Assembly: GCF_900142475.1 (NCBI RefSeq)
Contig: NZ_FRAY01000006.1
Span: 62,001-126,000 of the forward strand
Source of the DNA: Fibrobacter sp. UWH4
GTDB taxonomy: Bacteria; Fibrobacterota; Fibrobacteria; Fibrobacterales; Fibrobacteraceae
DNA: 64,000 bases
Direction of reading: 5' to 3'
Shown here: piece by piece, positions 10,505 to 61,921 of the stretch
Position numbering within the stretch: the stretch's first letter is position 1
How the letters are laid out: every line of letters starts with the position of its first letter
The notes under the pieces: generated by a model
Database searches by the model: none
The model's input: the letters and a program-made list of their open reading frames with translations, nothing else
What the model was told of the DNA's origin: nothing
Position numbers and translations under genes: made by a program

Positions 10505-10539
10505 ATTCTCGCAATTCGTCATGCCCCGTGGTCCAGCCC

Positions 10540-10577
10540 TTCGGCATGGTTCGGCAGGCTCACCAACCGAGCTCAGG
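10540..10577. repeat. Dispersed repeat TTCGGCATGGTTCGGCAGGC-type, copy 1
   Basis: 38 bases, starting TTCGGCATGGTTCGGCAGGC and ending CGAGCTCAGG, match the segment at 61850-61887. Both copies lie just upstream of minus-strand coding starts and can be read as protein if an earlier start codon is assumed. Confidence 0.8.
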
Positions 10578-10631
10578 GACCTTATCACCAACCTTAGCGG
10601 GCATCTCCCGCCAATCCAAGGCTATGGTTTT

Positions 10632-27069: not shown

Positions 27070-27085
27070 CATAAACTTTACAAGG

Positions 27086-27150
27086 CCCCAGCCTGCACCG
27101 AGCCTTGTCGAAGTGAGTTTGCCGAAGGGCCGAAAAGCCTTCCGCCGAAA
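27086..27150. repeat. Dispersed GAGCCTTGTCGAAG-type repeat
   Basis: CACCGAGCCTTGTCGAAGTG is followed by AGTTTGCCGAAGGGCCGAAA. It is related to the CTTCGGCAAGCTCAGGG unit that is repeated inside the expansin-like gene near 59.6-59.9 kb. It fills the spacer between the serine hydrolase and the TauE/SafE gene. Confidence 0.5.
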
Positions 27151-47075: not shown

Positions 47076-48689
47076 AAAACACCTCCGCTTGCGCGGAGAA
47101 AACCCACTACCCGGAAATGCTACCTTACCATCGGCGGAAACACCTCCGCTTGCGCGGAGAAAACACGCCGACGGCAACAAGGCGGAAAAGAACTTTAGAA
47201 ACACCTCCGCTTGCGCGGAGAAAACTCCGTTGCTATGCCGAAAGGTTCCGCATCGTCAGAAACACCTCCGCTTGCGCGGAGAAAACGCATGGCTGACTTG
47301 ACGGAAAAGATTCATTCAAGAAACACCTCCGCTTGCGCGGAGAAAACCTTTTGTCCTCTATCCCTTTAGTCGGTATTTTGGAAACACCTCCGCTTGCGCG
47401 GAGAAAACCAACCAAAAGGAGGTCGATCATGGCTTGCGGAAGAAACACCTCCGCTTGCGCGGAGAAAACAAAGGTAGGCCGCTTGCTGCCATAGGTCGCC
47501 CAGAAACACCTCCGCTTGCGCGGAGAAAACCTCTTGCCCTGCAAGAAGTGTACCCAAGCACCGGAAACACCTCCGCTTGCGCGGAGAAAACCGCACACGC
47601 AGCCCGTCAAGCCCGCATCCATTAGAAACATCTCCGCTTGCGCGGAGAAAACTGCCGCAAATTATTGAATCAAGGCATGATTATAGAAACACCTCCGCTT
47701 GCGCGGAGAAAACGCGGAACTGTCACCTTCCAATCGGGATAAGGGAGAAACACCTCCGCTTGCGCGGAGAAAACATCAAGGACGTATAACATTTTTTAAC
47801 GGGGTCAGAAACACCTCCGCTTGCGCGGAGAAAACTTGCCGAGGACGAGATTTGCGTAATCTTCGTAAGAAACACCTCCGCTTGCGCGGAGAAAACAACT
47901 TGGCTACATACCTGAAATCGCCTTTAGTGGAAACACCTCCGCTTGCGCGGAGAAAACGTTTTCCAGGAGAGCGTCCGCGAGCTTGCCGTAGAAACACCTC
48001 CGCTTGCGCGGAGAAAACTATCCTTGCCCGCTCCGCAGCGCATCGACCCCGGAAACACCTCCGCTTGCGCGGAGAAAACATCTTTTTGAGTCAATCATGG
48101 AAAATCCTTTATCAAACACCTCCGCTTGCGCGGAGAAAACATGCTTACGCCAACCAGCCACAATGTAACCGTAGAAACACCTCCGCTTGCGCGGAGAAAA
48201 CCCAACCAAACGCGAACGGTGTCCAAAGTAGGAAGAAACACCTCCGCTTGCGCGGAGAAAACACCGGGAAAATTTTGCCCACCCAAATGGCGCAGGAAAC
48301 ACCTCCGCTTGCGCGGAGAAAACTCGGTTCTTCCTTGGCCGGGATTCGTTCGGCAAGAAACACCTCCGCTTGCGCGGAGAAAACGCATCAAACGCTTGCA
48401 CGAAAGCAAAACGCAGGGAAACACCTCCGCTTGCGCGGAGAAAACTCGTCCCTCGACGACTTCATGGCTGCTGCTAGGGAAACACCTCCGCTTGCGCGGA
48501 GAAAACGGAGAACTGGTACAGAGGGTCATCGGCGTACTGGAAACACCTCCGCTTGCGCGGAGAAAACCAAACATAGATATGACACACGTCCACAGCGAGG
48601 GAAACACCTCCGCTTGCGCGGAGAAAACGAGTGTTCGACGCTGCCGCGAGCCTGCTCGGTAGAAACACCTCCGCTTGCGCGGAGAAAAC
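47076..48689 (-). CRISPR. CRISPR array, type I-E, 27 repeats and 26 spacers
   Basis: The repeat is 28 bases (plus strand begins GAAACACCTCCGCTTGCGCG, then GAGAAAAC), with a CTCCGCGCAAGCGGAG hairpin on the minus strand. Starts lie at 47076 + 61n for n = 0-26, so every spacer is exactly 33 bases. Three repeats carry variants: the first (A for G at base 1, 47076), the one at 47625 (T at base 7) and the one at 48113 (C at base 1). By analogy with E. coli the transcribed strand is minus, with the leader on the cas2 side; the degenerate 47076 repeat at the far end is consistent. Open frames that read RNTSACAEKT are artefacts. Confidence 0.97.
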
Positions 48690-54495: not shown

Positions 54496-57102
54496 TTACT
54501 TTTCAATTTTATAACCAACACTCTTTGTATATAACATTTTTTTTGCGTTTTCGTCACCAAAAATTTCTAGTCTATTCCGGTTTAAGTCTCTAAACGAGCT
54601 GTCTTTGTCCACAATAACCGCTCTGAACATACATTTTTCATCGTCTTCTTGGTCTCCAAGATAAACATAAGCTCCAAAAACATCTATATGCCGATCTATC
54701 GGAGGAGCATCCTGTTCTGCAATAACAACACAATGTTCCACAATTTTTTTCGACAATTCTCTTTTTTGTCTTTCACTTGACGGATATTTAGGCAAAACAA
54801 CCGTCTCCGATTCATTCCAAAAATTTATTTCAACTCCGTATTCTCCAACTTCGAAAGATTCCAACAACAACACGGAAACCGTATCAACATCGGAATATCG
54901 TGTCTGTACAGCAGATTCTGGCAATGTTGAAATAGCTGAAGATAAGCCGACCCTAGCGAGTCCTTGCAAATGGGACTGTTTTCCCAACAAATCAGTTTTC
55001 ATTTTTGCTAGGATTCCATCTTCCTGCCGCTCTTGGTAAACGCTTTCCAACAGCCCACGAATATCATTCGGCAAATTAACGACATCTATATGTTTCAACA
55101 CATCAAGTGTTCGGCTCAGAACATAGGGGCTATACACCACCCCCGTTACTCCAAATACTTTATCGCTTTTTATAACATCTTCAACAACAGGCGAAAGGAC
55201 AAGTGTTTCACATTTTGCCGTTGACGGGCGAATCTTATCATTTTCGCGATGTCGCCATAAGCGCCCGATTCTTTGCAAAAGCATATCCATCGGGCAAATC
55301 CTGGTTATCAAATAATCCGCATCAATATCAATAGATTGTTCTAGGACTTGCGTTCCCACTAAAATTCGACCACAAGCATTTCGCTTAGAATAGCCATTTT
55401 TCCCGTACAGCGTGACCCATTTATTTTCTATTTCAGATCGTTGCTTTTTTATAAATCTGGAATGAATCAATCCACATTCTAAGCCCATTTCGGCAGATTT
55501 AGCAGCCAGTTTTTTGTAAACATTCTGAGCATCAGCAACAGTATTTTCTATCCAAAGAACTTGTTCCCCATTTTCAGCTTTTTCCAAAGCAATGTCAAAA
55601 GCCATTTTATCATCTTTACTTATTTTAATAGAGACATTCCGGTTAGATTCTCCCAAACTTGAAATTTCAGAAAAAGCCTTGTCCGTTTGGCTAGAAATTA
55701 AGGGATAACTATCGTTTAAGACCTGTTCAAACGGTAAATCCAAAATTTTCTTTTTCTGGGATGACGTCAATGTTGCACTTAAAATAATTACTGTGCATCC
55801 AATGTGCTTTAATTCATCAACAAGGGCATTCATTATCGTTCCAGTATAGGAATCGTAGCTATGCACCTCATCAAGAATTACGACTTTCCCTGCCAAACCA
55901 AATGCTCGCACCATGCTATGCTTGACATTCATAGCCGCCATAAGTGCTTGGTCAATAGTACCAACGGCAAACGGAGCCAGAATTCCTCGTTTTTTGGAAT
56001 CAAACCAAGACTTACCAACTTTGGCATCTTCACCCAAAGAATCCTCTTCAAGCCAAGCAGAACTATGCAGCAACTTTAAGCAATACGAGGATTCTTCGCC
56101 CACGATTTTACTAAGGAACGATTCCACTCGTTCATAAATTTTATTAGATGTCAATTGTGTCGGAAGGCCAAAGTAAATTCCAGAAGCAAGCCCTTTTTCC
56201 AGCATTTTATAGGCAGCATAAAGAGCCGCTTCTGTTTTTCCCAAACCCATCGGGGCTTCCAAAACATAAACACCAGGAAAAGAAACAGATTCGAACAGAT
56301 CCGACTGAATTTTTCTAGGAGTAAAGCCAAAAATATCTTTGAACTGAAGCCCTTGCTTTATAGAAAGCGGAATAAAACCAGCATTATGAACAGCCTTATG
56401 AGCAATCTTTTTCAAATCATCTTTACTATAAGAATGATTTTGCTGAATATTGCCAAAATAACCACCAGAAGCAATCCAGTCTGCAACAGTTATGAAACCA
56501 CCTATAACACAAGCCTGATTCCATTCACTTAAATTATTTGAATCAGAATAGGGGAAACTCCGTTCCAAGTTTTCAATAAGCTTATGCCGCAACGCGGTCC
56601 AGTTTTCGCCACCATAAATATCACGATTCTCCGCAATTGGACTAAAATTCGGCTTAAAGCCGTGATGCATTCCTTCAATGGTTGCAAGCATTTTTTGTTC
56701 TGGAAAGCTACTTTCAATAGATACTTGAGAAACTTTTCCGTGAAAACTCACATCTTTTCGTTTTGCCCTATTTTCGTTGGCATTCTGCAACTGAGGAAAA
56801 TCTTTAACACTCCCAAGCCACGATGTGTATATCATACGCTGGAAATCAGGACTTAACTTCCCTACATCGTGTATGGACGCAAAAAACGGAGCTGATTTCG
56901 TAAGAATTTGCTTCACATTATCTATTAAGGACTTGCACAATTCCTCTGCAACAAAACCAGTTATTATACAATGCTCAGCAACCGAAATACCAGGCTTTGT
57001 GTCGCCCGTTTTTTCGTCAACAACAAGTTTAGCCAGACATTTTTCCGGCGACAACGCCTCAATTTGACGTTCTTGAGTATTCTTTAAGCATTTTCCCAAC
57101 AT
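54496..57102 (-). CDS. cas3: CRISPR-associated helicase-nuclease Cas3
   Basis: The 868-aa protein has an HD nuclease part (SVAEHCIITGFVAEELC, FFASIHDVGKLSPDFQRMIY, with the HD pair) followed by a superfamily 2 helicase: Walker A VLEAPMGLGKTEAALYAA and DEVH box VVILDEVHSYDSYTG, plus LVGTQVLEQSIDIDADYLIT and MDMLLQRIGRLWRHREN. The HD domain cuts and the helicase unwinds DNA after Cascade recruitment. It is the first gene of the operon, with promoter-like AT-rich sequence between it and the divergent hip operon. Confidence 0.93.
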   Translation of the reverse strand: MLGKCLKNTQERQIEALSPEKCLAKLVVDEKTGDTKPGISVAEHCIITGFVAEELCKSLIDNVKQILTKSAPFFASIHDVGKLSPDFQRMIYTSWLGSVKDFPQLQNANENRAKRKDVSFHGKVSQVSIESSFPEQKMLATIEGMHHGFKPNFSPIAENRDIYGGENWTALRHKLIENLERSFPYSDSNNLSEWNQACVIGGFITVADWIASGGYFGNIQQNHSYSKDDLKKIAHKAVHNAGFIPLSIKQGLQFKDIFGFTPRKIQSDLFESVSFPGVYVLEAPMGLGKTEAALYAAYKMLEKGLASGIYFGLPTQLTSNKIYERVESFLSKIVGEESSYCLKLLHSSAWLEEDSLGEDAKVGKSWFDSKKRGILAPFAVGTIDQALMAAMNVKHSMVRAFGLAGKVVILDEVHSYDSYTGTIMNALVDELKHIGCTVIILSATLTSSQKKKILDLPFEQVLNDSYPLISSQTDKAFSEISSLGESNRNVSIKISKDDKMAFDIALEKAENGEQVLWIENTVADAQNVYKKLAAKSAEMGLECGLIHSRFIKKQRSEIENKWVTLYGKNGYSKRNACGRILVGTQVLEQSIDIDADYLITRICPMDMLLQRIGRLWRHRENDKIRPSTAKCETLVLSPVVEDVIKSDKVFGVTGVVYSPYVLSRTLDVLKHIDVVNLPNDIRGLLESVYQERQEDGILAKMKTDLLGKQSHLQGLARVGLSSAISTLPESAVQTRYSDVDTVSVLLLESFEVGEYGVEINFWNESETVVLPKYPSSERQKRELSKKIVEHCVVIAEQDAPPIDRHIDVFGAYVYLGDQEDDEKCMFRAVIVDKDSSFRDLNRNRLEIFGDENAKKMLYTKSVGYKIEK

Positions 57103-57283: not shown

Positions 57284-57490
57284 ATGCAGAATCTTGGCGA
57301 ACAGATAGCGCAACGGCGCAAATACTTCAACATTTCGCAGGCAGACCTTGCGGAAATGGCGGGCGTCAGCCTGCGCACCGTGAGCGGGATCGAAAACGGG
57401 AGCGCCAATCCTAGTCTCGACGTGCTTTCCAAAATTCTAGAGGTTCTAGGACTCACGATTACCCTGCAGGAGCGCGTCATCCATGAATAA
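57284..57490 (+). CDS. hipB: HipB-type HTH antitoxin/repressor
   Basis: The 68-aa protein is an XRE-type helix-turn-helix: LGEQIAQRRKYFNISQADLA, EMAGVSLRTVSGIENGSANP, SLDVLSKILEVLGLTITLQE. It is the DNA-binding member of the three-gene hip operon and probably binds the two palindromes upstream. It overlaps hipS by 8 bp. It is shorter than E. coli HipB (88 aa). Confidence 0.85.
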   Translation: MQNLGEQIAQRRKYFNISQADLAEMAGVSLRTVSGIENGSANPSLDVLSKILEVLGLTITLQERVIHE

Positions 57491-57824
57491 AACGGCTCAC
57501 TACAGATTACGCAAGGCATGCGTTCTAAAAAACGGGAAAACTGCAGGATATCTGCTAGCGAACAAAAGGCGCTTTGTGTTTATCTACGACAGTGACTACC
57601 TCGCAACCGGAGGTTCCTCCATCGCTACCGGATTCCCCAAAGCCCAACGGATTTTTTCTTCACGATATCTATTCCCATTCTTCAGTGGACTCTTGCCCGA
57701 AGGCGAAAACCTAGCTTACATCTGCAGGAGCCTAAAGCTCAACCCCAAAGATAAATTCGGCCTACTTCTGGAACTCGCCCAGAACGAAACCATCGGCGCC
57801 ATCACCGTGAGAGGAATCGAATAA
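57483..57824 (+). CDS. hipS: HipS-type protein (HipA N-terminal subdomain)
   Basis: The 113-aa protein corresponds to the HipA N-subdomain 1 alone: GKTAGYLLANKRRFVFIYDS, then ASGGSSIATGF-like LATGGSSIATGFPKAQRIFS, and LFPFFSGLLPEGENLAYICR. In the E. coli O127 HipBST system, HipS is the antitoxin that neutralises HipT. Here the same split is seen: HipS ends with a TAATG overlap on hipT. HipA itself would carry this region fused to the kinase. Confidence 0.85.
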   Translation: MNKTAHYRLRKACVLKNGKTAGYLLANKRRFVFIYDSDYLATGGSSIATGFPKAQRIFSSRYLFPFFSGLLPEGENLAYICRSLKLNPKDKFGLLLELAQNETIGAITVRGIE

Positions 57825-58801
57825 TGCGTTGCCATTGCTGCCTCAAAGAAACCGAAAACGATTTCTGCCGTTCCTGTTCGCAAAGACTTTTCAGCAAAGC
57901 CAATTTCAGCGCAATGCTGAAGTTTACACTTCCAAGCATCGCTCAAGGCACCAACCAAAACACCCGAAGAATTTCCATATCCGGGGCACAGGCAAAATAT
58001 TCCTTGCGCATCGTATCTAAAGAGCTTGAACCGACCGACAACAATGGCACCTACATTCTGAAGCCTGCTACAAATATGCAGTTTAGGCTATTCGCCGATA
58101 TGCCCGCAAACGAGCACATCACCATGCAAATGGCAAAACAGATTTTCAAATTGAATGTAGCCGAATCGGCTTTGCTACAGTTTACAACCGGAGAATACAC
58201 CTATCTCACCAAACGATTCGACATTCGCAACGATGGTTCAAAAATTCTTCAGGAAGATTTAGCACAAACCGCAGGTCTATCAAGCGACGCAAATGGTTCT
58301 AATTTCAAGTACGAAAGCCTAAGTTACGAAGAAATCGCTTACATCCTGAAGCAACATGTAAGCGCTAGTCCCATTGCGATTGAGCAATTTTTCAAGGTTC
58401 TGCTGTTCAATTATCTTGTATGCAACGGCGACGCGCACATCAAGAATTTTTCGATATATTGCCCTCATCAAGACGGCGTTTACGAACTCACGCCCGCCTA
58501 CGACCTGATAAACACTTCGCTGCACGCCGATGACTTTAGAACCGCGCTTGATCTTTTCAAGGACGAAGAAAACTATAACGGGAAATTCTTTAAGGACAAC
58601 GGTTTTTACGGAGCTAGCGACTTTCTGGAATTTGCAAGACGCATCGGCATTGTAGAAAAACGCGCCCAAAAATTCATTCGTGACATCACGGCACACATTC
58701 CAGAAATGGACGAAATGTTGGACAAGTCGTTCTTAAGCGACGAAGCCAAAGTCCAATACAAAGAAAACATTCGCGACCGTGCCAAAGCACTCAGCTTGTA
58801 G
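57824..58801 (+). CDS. hipT: HipT-type serine/threonine kinase toxin
   Basis: The 325-aa protein is a HipA-like kinase lacking the N-terminal subdomain. An N-terminal cysteine cluster (MRCHCCLKETENDFCRSCSQ) looks like a zinc ribbon. The Gly-rich loop is RRISISGAQAKYSLRI, with the SIS motif reported for HipT. Catalytic residues lie in VCNGDAHIKNFSIYCPH and the metal-binding DLI-type motif is LTPAYDLINTSL. HipT of E. coli phosphorylates tryptophanyl-tRNA synthetase and blocks growth; a similar translation target is expected. It abuts the convergent expansin-like gene. Confidence 0.85.
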   Translation: MRCHCCLKETENDFCRSCSQRLFSKANFSAMLKFTLPSIAQGTNQNTRRISISGAQAKYSLRIVSKELEPTDNNGTYILKPATNMQFRLFADMPANEHITMQMAKQIFKLNVAESALLQFTTGEYTYLTKRFDIRNDGSKILQEDLAQTAGLSSDANGSNFKYESLSYEEIAYILKQHVSASPIAIEQFFKVLLFNYLVCNGDAHIKNFSIYCPHQDGVYELTPAYDLINTSLHADDFRTALDLFKDEENYNGKFFKDNGFYGASDFLEFARRIGIVEKRAQKFIRDITAHIPEMDEMLDKSFLSDEAKVQYKENIRDRAKALSL

Positions 58802-60046
58802 CTATTCCCTATGTTCGTATAGGTACAGGTTCGCCTCGGGTACTGCGAGGTCGGAACCCTTGATTTTCCATTCGTCGTCGGTGCCGGTGCGGTACTTCAC
58901 CACCACGCGGTAGCGGTTGTCGGTCTTTAAGACGGCCTCAGGAACGGTCCAGAAGTTTTCGGTGCCCACGACCATTTCTAGTTCGTAGAAGTCACTAGTG
59001 TCGACACCGTAGATGGCGATGGATTTTACCATGTCCTTCGGGTTACGCACCTGGATTATGCTCCAGAATTCGCTGGCACCTTCCTTGACCCAGATGGACG
59101 TTGAATCGCCCCACACGCCGTCTACGCCCTCGCAGCTCACGAATTCCCATTCGCCGTAGTAGCGGCCCACCTGATTTCCCATGATGTCAGCGGCAGGGGC
59201 GCCGCCCAAGTCCACGCCGCAATCAGCATCGGGACAGCGGTCGGTAATGCGCACGGTCACATGCTTCCAGCCGTAGAGTGTTTTCGCCTTCACGCGCACG
59301 CAGCCGCCACAGGCCGCGCCGCCATTCCACGGGCCCTTTTCATCGCCAGGGGACACATTCACATGGATCGCCGCGTAGTATTGTATGTTAGTTTGTCCGT
59401 AGTTGCAGGCGCCACCGAGGCTCGTTTCTTTTGCCGTGATACTCCCGTAGGTGGTCACGGAACCCTTGCCGCCGTTTTCGGTGAGTTCGGGGTCTGCCGC
59501 GGTGTAGCTATCGCAGGCGGTGCACTTGCCGTCGTCGCCATCGTTATCGTCGCTGCTGGATTCTGGTGCTGCGCTCGACGAAGATAGCGCCACATTCACT
59601 GAGGAACTTGTCCCTTCGGCAAGCTCAGGGACCTTGGTTATTTCGGAGGAGCTTGAACCTTCGGCAAGCTCAGGGGCCTTGGTTGTTTCAGAGGAGCTTG
59701 AACCTTCGGCAGGCTCAGGGGCCTTGGTTATTTCGGAGGAGCTTGAACCTTCGGCAAGCTCAGGGGCCTTGGTTGTTTCAGAGGAGCTTGAACCTTCGGC
59801 AGGCTCAGGGGCCTTGGTTATTTCGGAGGAGCTTGAACCTTCGGCAAGCTCAGGGGCCTTGGTTGTTTCAGAGGAGCTTGAACCTTCGGCAGGCTCAGGG
59901 GCCTTGGTTATTTCGGAGGAACTTGACAGAAGCGAACTTTCGCTTGAAAGTGTATCGGTGGCACTCGCCGACGAATCATCACCGCAAGCAACAAAGCCTG
60001 CACCCAGCAGGGCGCTGAAACAAAAAGCAAGGGCATGAAGTCTCAT
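58802..60046 (-). CDS. Expansin-like lipoprotein with repetitive serine-rich linker
   Basis: Start MRLHALAFCFSALLGAGFVA gives 414 aa with lipobox GFVAC. After it comes a Ser/Glu-rich linker with seven 15-residue units (TKAPEPAEGSSSSET type). The C-terminal 240 residues resemble expansins/EXLX: TYGSITAKETSLGGACNYGQ, NGGAACGGCVRVKAKTLYGW, VTVRITDRCPDADCGVDLGG and APAADIMG, then a second sheet domain. Expansins loosen plant cell walls and are common in cellulose-degrading bacteria. The cysteine pairs and the DRCPDADCGVDL motif support the double-psi barrel. Surface anchoring is expected. Confidence 0.8.
   Translation of the reverse strand: MRLHALAFCFSALLGAGFVACGDDSSASATDTLSSESSLLSSSSEITKAPEPAEGSSSSETTKAPELAEGSSSSEITKAPEPAEGSSSSETTKAPELAEGSSSSEITKAPEPAEGSSSSETTKAPELAEGSSSSEITKVPELAEGTSSSVNVALSSSSAAPESSSDDNDGDDGKCTACDSYTAADPELTENGGKGSVTTYGSITAKETSLGGACNYGQTNIQYYAAIHVNVSPGDEKGPWNGGAACGGCVRVKAKTLYGWKHVTVRITDRCPDADCGVDLGGAPAADIMGNQVGRYYGEWEFVSCEGVDGVWGDSTSIWVKEGASEFWSIIQVRNPKDMVKSIAIYGVDTSDFYELEMVVGTENFWTVPEAVLKTDNRYRVVVKYRTGTDDEWKIKGSDLAVPEANLYLYEHRE
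59603..59920 (-). repeat. Seven 45-bp tandem units inside the expansin-like gene
   Basis: Each unit contains CTTCGGCAAGCTCAGGG or CTTCGGCAGGCTCAGGG (plus strand) followed by GCCTTGGTT and a serine-coding segment. Odd and even units alternate (ITKAPEP versus TTKAPEL), giving a 90-bp higher-order repeat. The 17-base core is the dispersed genomic element seen near 27.1, 10.6 and 61.9 kb. Confidence 0.85.
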
Positions 60047-60083
60047 ACCCTTGAATATAATATATTCTTTTAATGAAAAAGGG

Positions 60084-60290
60084 TGATCCCGGCACAAGGC
60101 CGGGATGACATGTGAGTGGTTGGCCGGGATGACAAATGAGCGCCTTACCAGTCGTTGCGCTCGTTGAGCGCAAGACCTTGCGGGTATCAAAAGCCAGCCT
60201 TACCAGTCATTGCGCTTCGCGCAAGACTCGACGGCTCGGCCATAGAAAAATGCAAGCATTTTTCTGCGGCGCTCGCCTTACCAGTCTTTG
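60084..60290. repeat. Cluster of palindromic and GCCTTACCAGTC repeats
   Basis: GATCCCGGCACAAGGCCGGG, then ATGAC (60084-60112), is followed by a second GGCCGGGATGACAAATGAG. The motif GCCTTACCAGTC occurs three times (60142, 60197, 60275); the last copy is the stop region of the TPR gene. A perfect hairpin GAAAAATGC/GCATTTTTC (60245-60264) could terminate that gene. No coding sequence is supported here between 60047 and 60277. Confidence 0.65.
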
Positions 60291-61084
60291 GCTGGTCTTG
60301 CCTGGCCGCGGATGGGTTTCCAGGGTTTGCGTTCGCCGTTCTGTTCGTCGAAGTCTTTCAGGAGCTGCGCCGCTTCTTCGGGGCTCATCTCGCCCATCTG
60401 CACAGGCTGTTCCTGGGGTTCCTCGCCGCCGTTACTGTCGCTGGAATTTTCCTGAGGCTGTTCGGGTTGCTGTTCTGGTTGCGCACCGCCTTCGCTGTCG
60501 GAGCTCCCTGCATCCGAGCTGCTGGACTGTCCGCCACCATTCTGGTTCTGGTCATCGGAAGCACTCGAAGAACTCTCGGAACCGCTGGAATTGCCTTCGC
60601 CATTCTGATCCTGGTTCTGCTGGTCCTGATTCTGGTCCTGCTGATCCTTGTTTTGATCCTGGTTCTGGTCCTGATTATTATCCTGATTCTTGTCGTTCTT
60701 CTTGTTCTCGTTCTTCTGCTCGTCCTTGGCCTCGTGGATACGGTCAAGGAGCATTTGCAGTTTCTGGTCGTTCGGATAATATTGCAGGCCTTCGTTACAA
60801 GTAATTTCGGCAGAAGGCAGGCGGTTTTCGATGTACTGGAAGGCGGCGTCGCTGTAATAGGCACTTGCTGACTTCGGGGCGGCAAAGGCCGACACTGCAG
60901 CCAAAAGAATTACAAACGCAAATGCAAGAATATGAGGCCTGGACCCTATCGCTACGCTCCAGGGTGACAGGTGACTGGTTTCCGCAAACTTGCTTCCGCT
61001 TGAATCGGGACTAGACCCCGTCGCTACGCTCCAGGGTGACAAGCAACAAACCTGAGCTCCGAATTCTGAATTCTGAATTTTCAT
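60278..61084 (-). CDS. Secreted TPR-like protein with QNQD-rich segment and repeat-derived N-terminus
   Basis: ATG at 61084 overlaps the previous stop (TGATG). The first 50 residues (MKIQNSEFGAQVCCLSPWSV and LSPWSVAIGSRPH) are translated from dispersed repeats; the signal peptide-like helix RPHILAFAFVILLAAVSAFA lies behind them. No other start codon lies in frame ahead of the helix. A TPR-like pair (ASAYYSDAAFQYIENRLPSA) follows, then a long Gln/Asn/Asp segment (NQDQNQDQNKDQQDQNQDQQ) and a Ser-rich region. Proteins of this sort resemble BatC-type partners. It ends RPAKDW. Confidence 0.6.
   Translation of the reverse strand: MKIQNSEFGAQVCCLSPWSVATGSSPDSSGSKFAETSHLSPWSVAIGSRPHILAFAFVILLAAVSAFAAPKSASAYYSDAAFQYIENRLPSAEITCNEGLQYYPNDQKLQMLLDRIHEAKDEQKNENKKNDKNQDNNQDQNQDQNKDQQDQNQDQQNQDQNGEGNSSGSESSSSASDDQNQNGGGQSSSSDAGSSDSEGGAQPEQQPEQPQENSSDSNGGEEPQEQPVQMGEMSPEEAAQLLKDFDEQNGERKPWKPIRGQARPAKDW
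60949..61040. repeat. Two CTGGAGCGTAGCGACGGGGT-type elements in the TPR gene 5' end
   Basis: On the minus strand CACCCTGGAGCGTAGCGACG, then GGGTC, occurs twice (60953 and 61020 region), encoding LSPWSVAIGS and LSPWSVATGS. A degenerate relative lies at 10764-10804. Confidence 0.75.
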
Positions 61085-61827: not shown

Positions 61828-61849
61828 TCTTCCATGGATAGCTCGGCCA

Positions 61850-61887
61850 TTCGGCATGGTTCGGCAGGCTCACCAACCGAGCTCAGG
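61850..61887. repeat. Dispersed repeat TTCGGCATGGTTCGGCAGGC-type, copy 2
   Basis: Same 38 bases as 10540-10577, lying between the glycosyltransferase-like gene and the TPR gene. Confidence 0.8.
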
Positions 61888-61921
61888 AACCTAGAGTTCG
61901 CCGTCCCGAACTAACTTGTTT

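Follow-up and report, generated by a model that had tools for sequence, protein, structure and literature searches.

A Dispersed Hairpin Element as the Probable Seed of a Tandem Repeat in the Ser-Rich Linker of a Fibrobacter Expansin-like Protein

Introduction

The GTAG and CGTC REPs are short dispersed palindromes that lie mostly between genes, with some in-frame copies inside them (Di Nocera et al. 2013, PMC3733652); REP clusters inside ORFs encoding 43-82 aa are reported from Thauera and R. conorii (PMC3733652). The Rickettsia palindromic elements (RPE), which are selfish palindromes of ~150 bp, are found in frame in many unrelated genes (PMC10969869). The element described here was found in a 64,000-nucleotide stretch of the genome of Fibrobacter sp. 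UWH4, which as a whole is called the window. Like the GTAG/CGTC REPs, it is a short dispersed palindrome with some copies in frame within genes. It differs from them in showing no GTAG or CGTC tag, in its long fixed loop and short variable stem, and in that in the window one unit together with its host flank has been regularly amplified, in an order given by the orthologs. With RPE it shares in-frame insertion in unrelated genes, but it is only ~24 bp long, has another sequence and resides in another host.

The array formed by this element in the window resembles coding minisatellites and VNTRs in its in-frame tandem units, its higher-order 90-bp period and its identical copies. Unlike these, it has a seed that can still be recognised as one of the dispersed hairpin elements, and a relative preserves the one-unit state. 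The intrastrand triplex repeats (PMC4666352) were also considered and rejected, because the E. coli consensus given there, CCCTCNCCC..., is a different sequence.

Results and Discussion

Host Gene and Tandem Array

The features of the locus, numbered from the first nucleotide of the window, are the following.

58802-60046, minus strand: host gene of 414 aa, from its translation; lipoprotein status predicted from the sequence
59600-59914, minus strand: tandem array of seven 45-bp units forming the repeated part of the linker, in the order A-B-A-B-A-B-C on the gene strand (Tandem Repeats Finder and codon listing)
59600-59644, minus strand: founder-like unit C, EITKVPELAEGTSSS, the sole unit that keeps the hairpin stem; its counterpart is the one clear unit of ortholog G013 (L063), which it also matches in GTCCC...GGGAC
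59610-59632, strand unspecified: hairpin element within unit C, GTCCC-(13-nt loop)-GGGAC (alignment and fold)
59645-59914, minus strand: three 90-bp A-B dimers, with the stem lost in all six units (Tandem Repeats Finder and codon listing)
59645-59689, 59735-59779 and 59825-59869, minus strand: B units
59690-59734, 59780-59824 and 59870-59914, minus strand: A units

The translated protein has a signal peptide ending in ...GAGFVAC, a Ser-rich linker and an expansin-like C-terminal domain, and it is probably a surface lipoprotein. The C-terminal domain matches solved expansins and EXLX1 (phmmer E 5.1e-8, 7e-7 and 8.3e-7). In contrast to bacterial expansins of the EXLX1 family, the protein is probably lipid-anchored, carries a long Ser-rich linker and stays below the curated Pfam cut-offs (EXPB1_D1, 20.7 vs 27; DPBB_1, 20.3 vs 28.8; Barwin, 19.9 vs 21).

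Several other features surround the gene. A HipA-like gene (57483-58801; HipA_C, E 4.7e-45), itself preceded by a small open frame, adjoins it tail to tail. Directly upstream of the start of the expansin-like gene lies the palindrome GGTGATCCCGGCACAAGGCCGGGATGACA (60082-60110), which resembles CGTC-type REPs and differs from the 13-nt-loop element. A repeat, ATCGCTACGCTCCAGGGTGACA / GTCGCTACGCTCCAGGGTGACA, is present twice (60945-60970 and 61013-61041) where the next open frame begins, and similar strings flank dispersed hairpin copies elsewhere. Farther away are a CRISPR-like array with the repeat GAAACACCTCCGCTTGCGCGGAGAAAAC (47137-48689) and a large helicase-nuclease-like open frame (54496-57102), by its appearance a candidate Cas3.

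The original prediction described a 17-mer occurring seven times in frame in the expansin-like gene, with alternating units in a 90-bp higher order, and both descriptions hold. At ≤1 mismatch, the 17-mer matches seven sites in the minus-strand frame 58802-60046 (59614, 59659, 59704, 59749, 59794, 59839 and 59884), four of them exact and three with A→G. Tandem Repeats Finder places the repeat at 59601-59926, with period 45 (7.2 copies) and period 90 (3.6 copies, 97% match), corresponding to three A-B pairs followed by C. What requires correction is the unit itself: rather than the 17-mer alone, it is a 45-bp segment composed of the ~24-bp hairpin element and ~20 bp of host Ser-codon sequence. 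The units are arranged head to tail, in frame and at a constant 45 bp (n = 7), as in a coding minisatellite.

Read in frame on the minus strand, the array gives (EITKAPEPAEGSSSS, ETTKAPELAEGSSSS) three times, then EITKVPELAEGTSSS. In the codon-by-codon listing the A units are identical to one another (n = 3), as are the B units (n = 3), which suggests that the 90-bp dimer was amplified or homogenised recently. At the arms, the A and B units read GCCCC...GGTTC, so that the stem is lost, while unit C reads GTCCC/GGGAC and holds the full element, with paired outer arms and the AAGG lead seen in dispersed copies. This founder is flanked by 10-bp direct repeats, CAAGTTCCTC, which derive from the Ser codons at either side and are exactly 45 bp apart.

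Orthologs and History of the Linker

Expansin-like orthologs are present across the genus and have both the domain and the Ser-rich linker in common, most of them without the element. The linker in the window, at 154 aa, is the longest among the 25 orthologs measured, the others having 69-139 aa. The closest ortholog, G013, contains one clear unit, EITKVPEPAEGTSSS, with flanks as in the window on both sides, and G035 also has one unit. In G020 a unit of the G013 type is interrupted by 24 bp, and the junction contains CACTGAGCAGGGTCGAAGTG, which is an element-like hairpin in its own right. Both G013 and G020 have a second, degenerate unit further on in the linker. Among the orthologs there are linkers with no unit, with one unit and with seven.

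Since the Ser-rich linker is older, as shown by the majority of orthologs, which have it without the element, and since G013 has one unit and only unit C retains the stem, the data point to insertion first and tandem amplification afterward. The original prediction that a mobile or amplified repeat was recruited to build the linker is borne out in part. In-frame entry followed by amplification, its main point, agrees with the single unit of G013 and with the element-free orthologs, but the linker was there beforehand. The orthologs indicate that the element lengthened an existing Ser-rich linker and did not build it.

The gene tree, from which proof of one insertion event was sought, did not provide it: G000 pairs with G013 and G035 with G020, and the element label needs two changes. 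A single origin of the element in this linker is allowed by the tree, though not shown by it, and may be correct. The A/B junction differs from the C junction at three positions and is closer to the additional degenerate unit that G013 and G020 carry than to C. Recombination involving two ancestral units is therefore also possible, and the array may have arisen in this way rather than from C alone.

Taken as a whole, it is very probable that a REP-like hairpin inserted in frame in an existing Ser-rich linker, that 45 bp were duplicated and that the A-B dimer was amplified, giving a longer tether. In a transposition-like insertion, the ~24-bp hairpin would have entered the linker in frame, to be read as K-V-P-E-L/P-A-E-G. 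In the lineage of the window, 45 bp comprising the element and the adjoining Ser codons would then have been duplicated, the duplicates would have diverged to A and B, and the 90-bp dimer would recently have been amplified to three copies, yielding seven units and the 154-aa linker. The likely route of expansion is slippage or unequal recombination between the CAAGTTCCTC repeats flanking the founder; because their spacing equals the unit length, either process would give the first duplication in frame. The result of the expansion is probably simply a longer flexible spacer between the lipid anchor and the expansin domain.

An adaptive expansion, driven by selection on APELAEGSSSSE units that bind some partner or substrate or undergo modification, is rather unlikely. 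It would fit an array that is in frame, intact, located in a surface protein and unique to the species among those searched, but the peptide is scattered in unrelated proteins and the orthologs manage without it. In G019 (L078) the expansin-like linker carries, in frame, another dispersed hairpin, CGTCATTCCGGGCTAGACCCGGAATCT, which is read as SRHSGLDPESS, has five copies (≤3 mismatches) in the G019 genome and fits CGTC-type REPs by description. A different hairpin repeat at this place suggests that the linker is generally tolerant of such insertions, which also argues against specific selection of the units.

The comparison of one clear unit (G013) with seven (window) is made between species, with one genome per species. 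An assembly artefact, with the identical 90-bp dimers over- or under-counted in a draft genome of 22 contigs, is improbable as an explanation of the unit number. Because the A, B and C units are all distinct, the true array cannot hold less than one A-B dimer and C, and the 315-bp array lies within one contig with its reading frame kept.

The Dispersed Hairpin Element

The element from which the array would have grown consists of an invariant 13-nt loop, TTCGRCARGCTCA, and a short covarying stem (3-5 bp), ~24 bp in total, and the 17-mer forms part of it. In the 3.70-Mb draft genome (22 contigs), the 13-nt core has 69 exact matches vs 0 for the reversed control, and the degenerate 17-mer (≤1 mismatch) has 49 vs 0. 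The objection foreseen with the original prediction, that the 17-mer might be no more frequent in the genome than by chance, therefore does not apply. The lone 17-mers reported near 10.57, 27.1 and 61.88 kb were not recovered as such: within the window the exact form is confined to the array, and these places hold related nested or degenerate forms.

10537-10584, strand unspecified: composite copy, a TGG/CCA-armed element lying within the loop of one with CCC/GGG arms; exact 13-nt core at 10550
27085-27131, strand unspecified: degenerate compound copy directly after a stop codon; one-mismatch core at 27114-27126, minus strand
61846-61893, strand unspecified: second composite copy, like the nested form and slightly degenerate; exact 13-nt core at 61860, TGG/CCA arms

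The nested composite form is seen in three places (10537-10584, 61846-61893 and near 1501 in L055), an arrangement that looks like insertion of elements into the loops of their own kind.

Across the aligned copies, the arms are paired as CCC/GGG, CAC/GTG, TGG/CCA, TGC/GCA and CGC/GCG, and in the 62 copies inspected they are usually followed by a conserved right end, ACCTT or ACCG. For 57 distinct copies, the covariation score of the stem is 0.498 vs 0.167 in shuffles and is reached by 0/500 of these; the shuffles leave the kinship between copies in place, and the score is not a probability. In the same copies, changes on both sides of stem pairs occupy 60 cells vs 25 in shuffles. Shifted pairings all score ≤0.11. 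The signal sits in the three inner pairs, the fourth being mostly unpaired. The variety of pair types is a stronger argument for the stem than the covariation figure. As a single-stranded DNA fold, the hairpin of unit C is weak (-4.6 kcal/mol, z -0.62), strong folding being limited to the CAC/GTG type (z -3.26); because of this weak fold energy of the founder, the structural claim rests on covariation.

Collectively, the alignment identifies the element as REP-like: a hairpin with a constant loop on a stem that is free to change while pairing holds. It corresponds to REPs in the broad sense, being a short (20-40 bp) palindrome of high copy number with a covarying stem, largely intergenic and in part in frame within genes. 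No unpaired GTAG or CGTC end tag was present in the 62 copies inspected, which places the element outside the GTAG/CGTC REP superfamilies. Rfam gave no family match in the window. A literature search with the core 13-mers and 11-mers returned no recognisable description of the repeat in open-access text without figures, so that an earlier description is possible.

These properties bear on the reading of the array as an ordinary linker minisatellite that grew by slippage and resembles the dispersed 17-mer by coincidence. The Ser-rich linkers of the genus do vary freely in length, and in G026 (L062) a linker segment is duplicated without the element. Nevertheless, this reading is very improbable: only 0.01 matches of the 17-mer are expected in the window from shuffles, against the seven seen, unit C contains the full element with its paired outer arms and AAGG lead, and the K-V-x-E-P-A-E peptide recurs in unrelated genes.

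In-Frame Copies in Other Genes

Of the 62 dispersed copies, at least 21 are intragenic and in frame, as judged in ~3-kb stretches from a codon-usage score on both flanks rather than from annotation, and ~9 more are within long open frames. Three frames are in use: K-V-x-E-L/P-A/V-E-G on one strand, and the A-L-R-Q-A-Q-G-P or G-S-T-S-S-P-T type on the other. The peptide K-V-x-E-P-A-E is found in unrelated genes of the same genome. Three other Ser-rich linkers of this genome contain a single copy each, SSSSDKVTEPAEVTSSSSSS (L032), SGKVTDKVGEPAEGSSSS (L039) and SSSSAKVPEPAEGPVSSSAK (L049).

In an epimerase the element corresponds to an insert of eight residues, and in MetH to an insert in a variable loop; both inserts are missing from orthologs in relatives. 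The MetH loop holds the element both in G006 (L270), where it is read as PSAGSGT, and in the window genome (L102), where it is read as KVPELAEG, which suggests two independent insertions at one tolerant site. That the element is, or has been, mobile is argued by its presence or absence within genes, its nesting and its patchy copy number.

Distribution and Possible Mobiliser

Within the phylum, direct pairs of a 12-nt core at 26-54 bp spacing occur in 12/168 genomes, and the seven-unit array is unmatched among the arrays listed from these 168. The copy number of the core is patchy within the genus, ranging from 0 to 207 per species among ~80 species (e.g., G020 and G156). That the coding repeat is older and gave rise to the dispersed copies is extremely improbable, for although the array and many dispersed copies coexist in the window genome, many array-less genomes of the phylum carry the dispersed element, as do other phyla, and the CAC/GTG and TGG/CCA stem types of dispersed copies are missing from the array.

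Direct pairs of a 14-nt core in public genomes come, among the matches listed, from Actinomycetota, Bacteroidota, Proteobacteria, Chloroflexi, Cyanobacteria, Parcubacteria and others, with some of these phylum labels stemming from metagenome bins that may be wrong. The isolates among these matches include Plantibacter, Microbacterium, Novosphingobium and Prevotella, and isolates alone span three phyla. In multi-phylum loci among the matches listed (L147-L226), all three arm bases are paired in 42/53 copies, counting only copies in which the scan pattern left the arms free, vs 7.8 expected from shuffles, and the paired arms comprise ~10 different triplet combinations. This excess indicates that the architecture of a loop with a covarying stem recurs outside the phylum. 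Phages and plasmids were rejected as carriers, giving only short, weak matches (plasmids of Sphingobium, Moraxella, Microbacterium and others; four Erwinia phages).

A Y1/RAYT transposase (PF01797) was sought in the window genome and none was found. PF01797 is also missing from most high-copy relatives and present in several low-copy ones, and across 17 genomes it bears no relation to core copy number; RAYT/Y1 was accordingly rejected as the mobiliser. That loops stay identical in many phyla while their stems compensate suggests strong recognition of the loop by a mobiliser. It is conceivable, though we advance it tentatively, that the element is one member of a mobile hairpin family, near pan-bacterial and so far without a name, which has the fixed loop TTCGRCARGCTCA, freely changing paired stems and a non-RAYT mobiliser, whose in-frame landing is tolerated and which can seed tandem repeats in proteins.

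Conclusions

In-frame REPs are already known; what is less usual here is the seeding of a coding minisatellite in an order given by orthologs, together with the occurrence of one loop with covarying stems across many phyla, without a RAYT in the window genome. The case shows how a dispersed element can seed a coding minisatellite. With all three states found in relatives, the way from a selfish dispersed DNA element to a repetitive segment of a protein can be traced.
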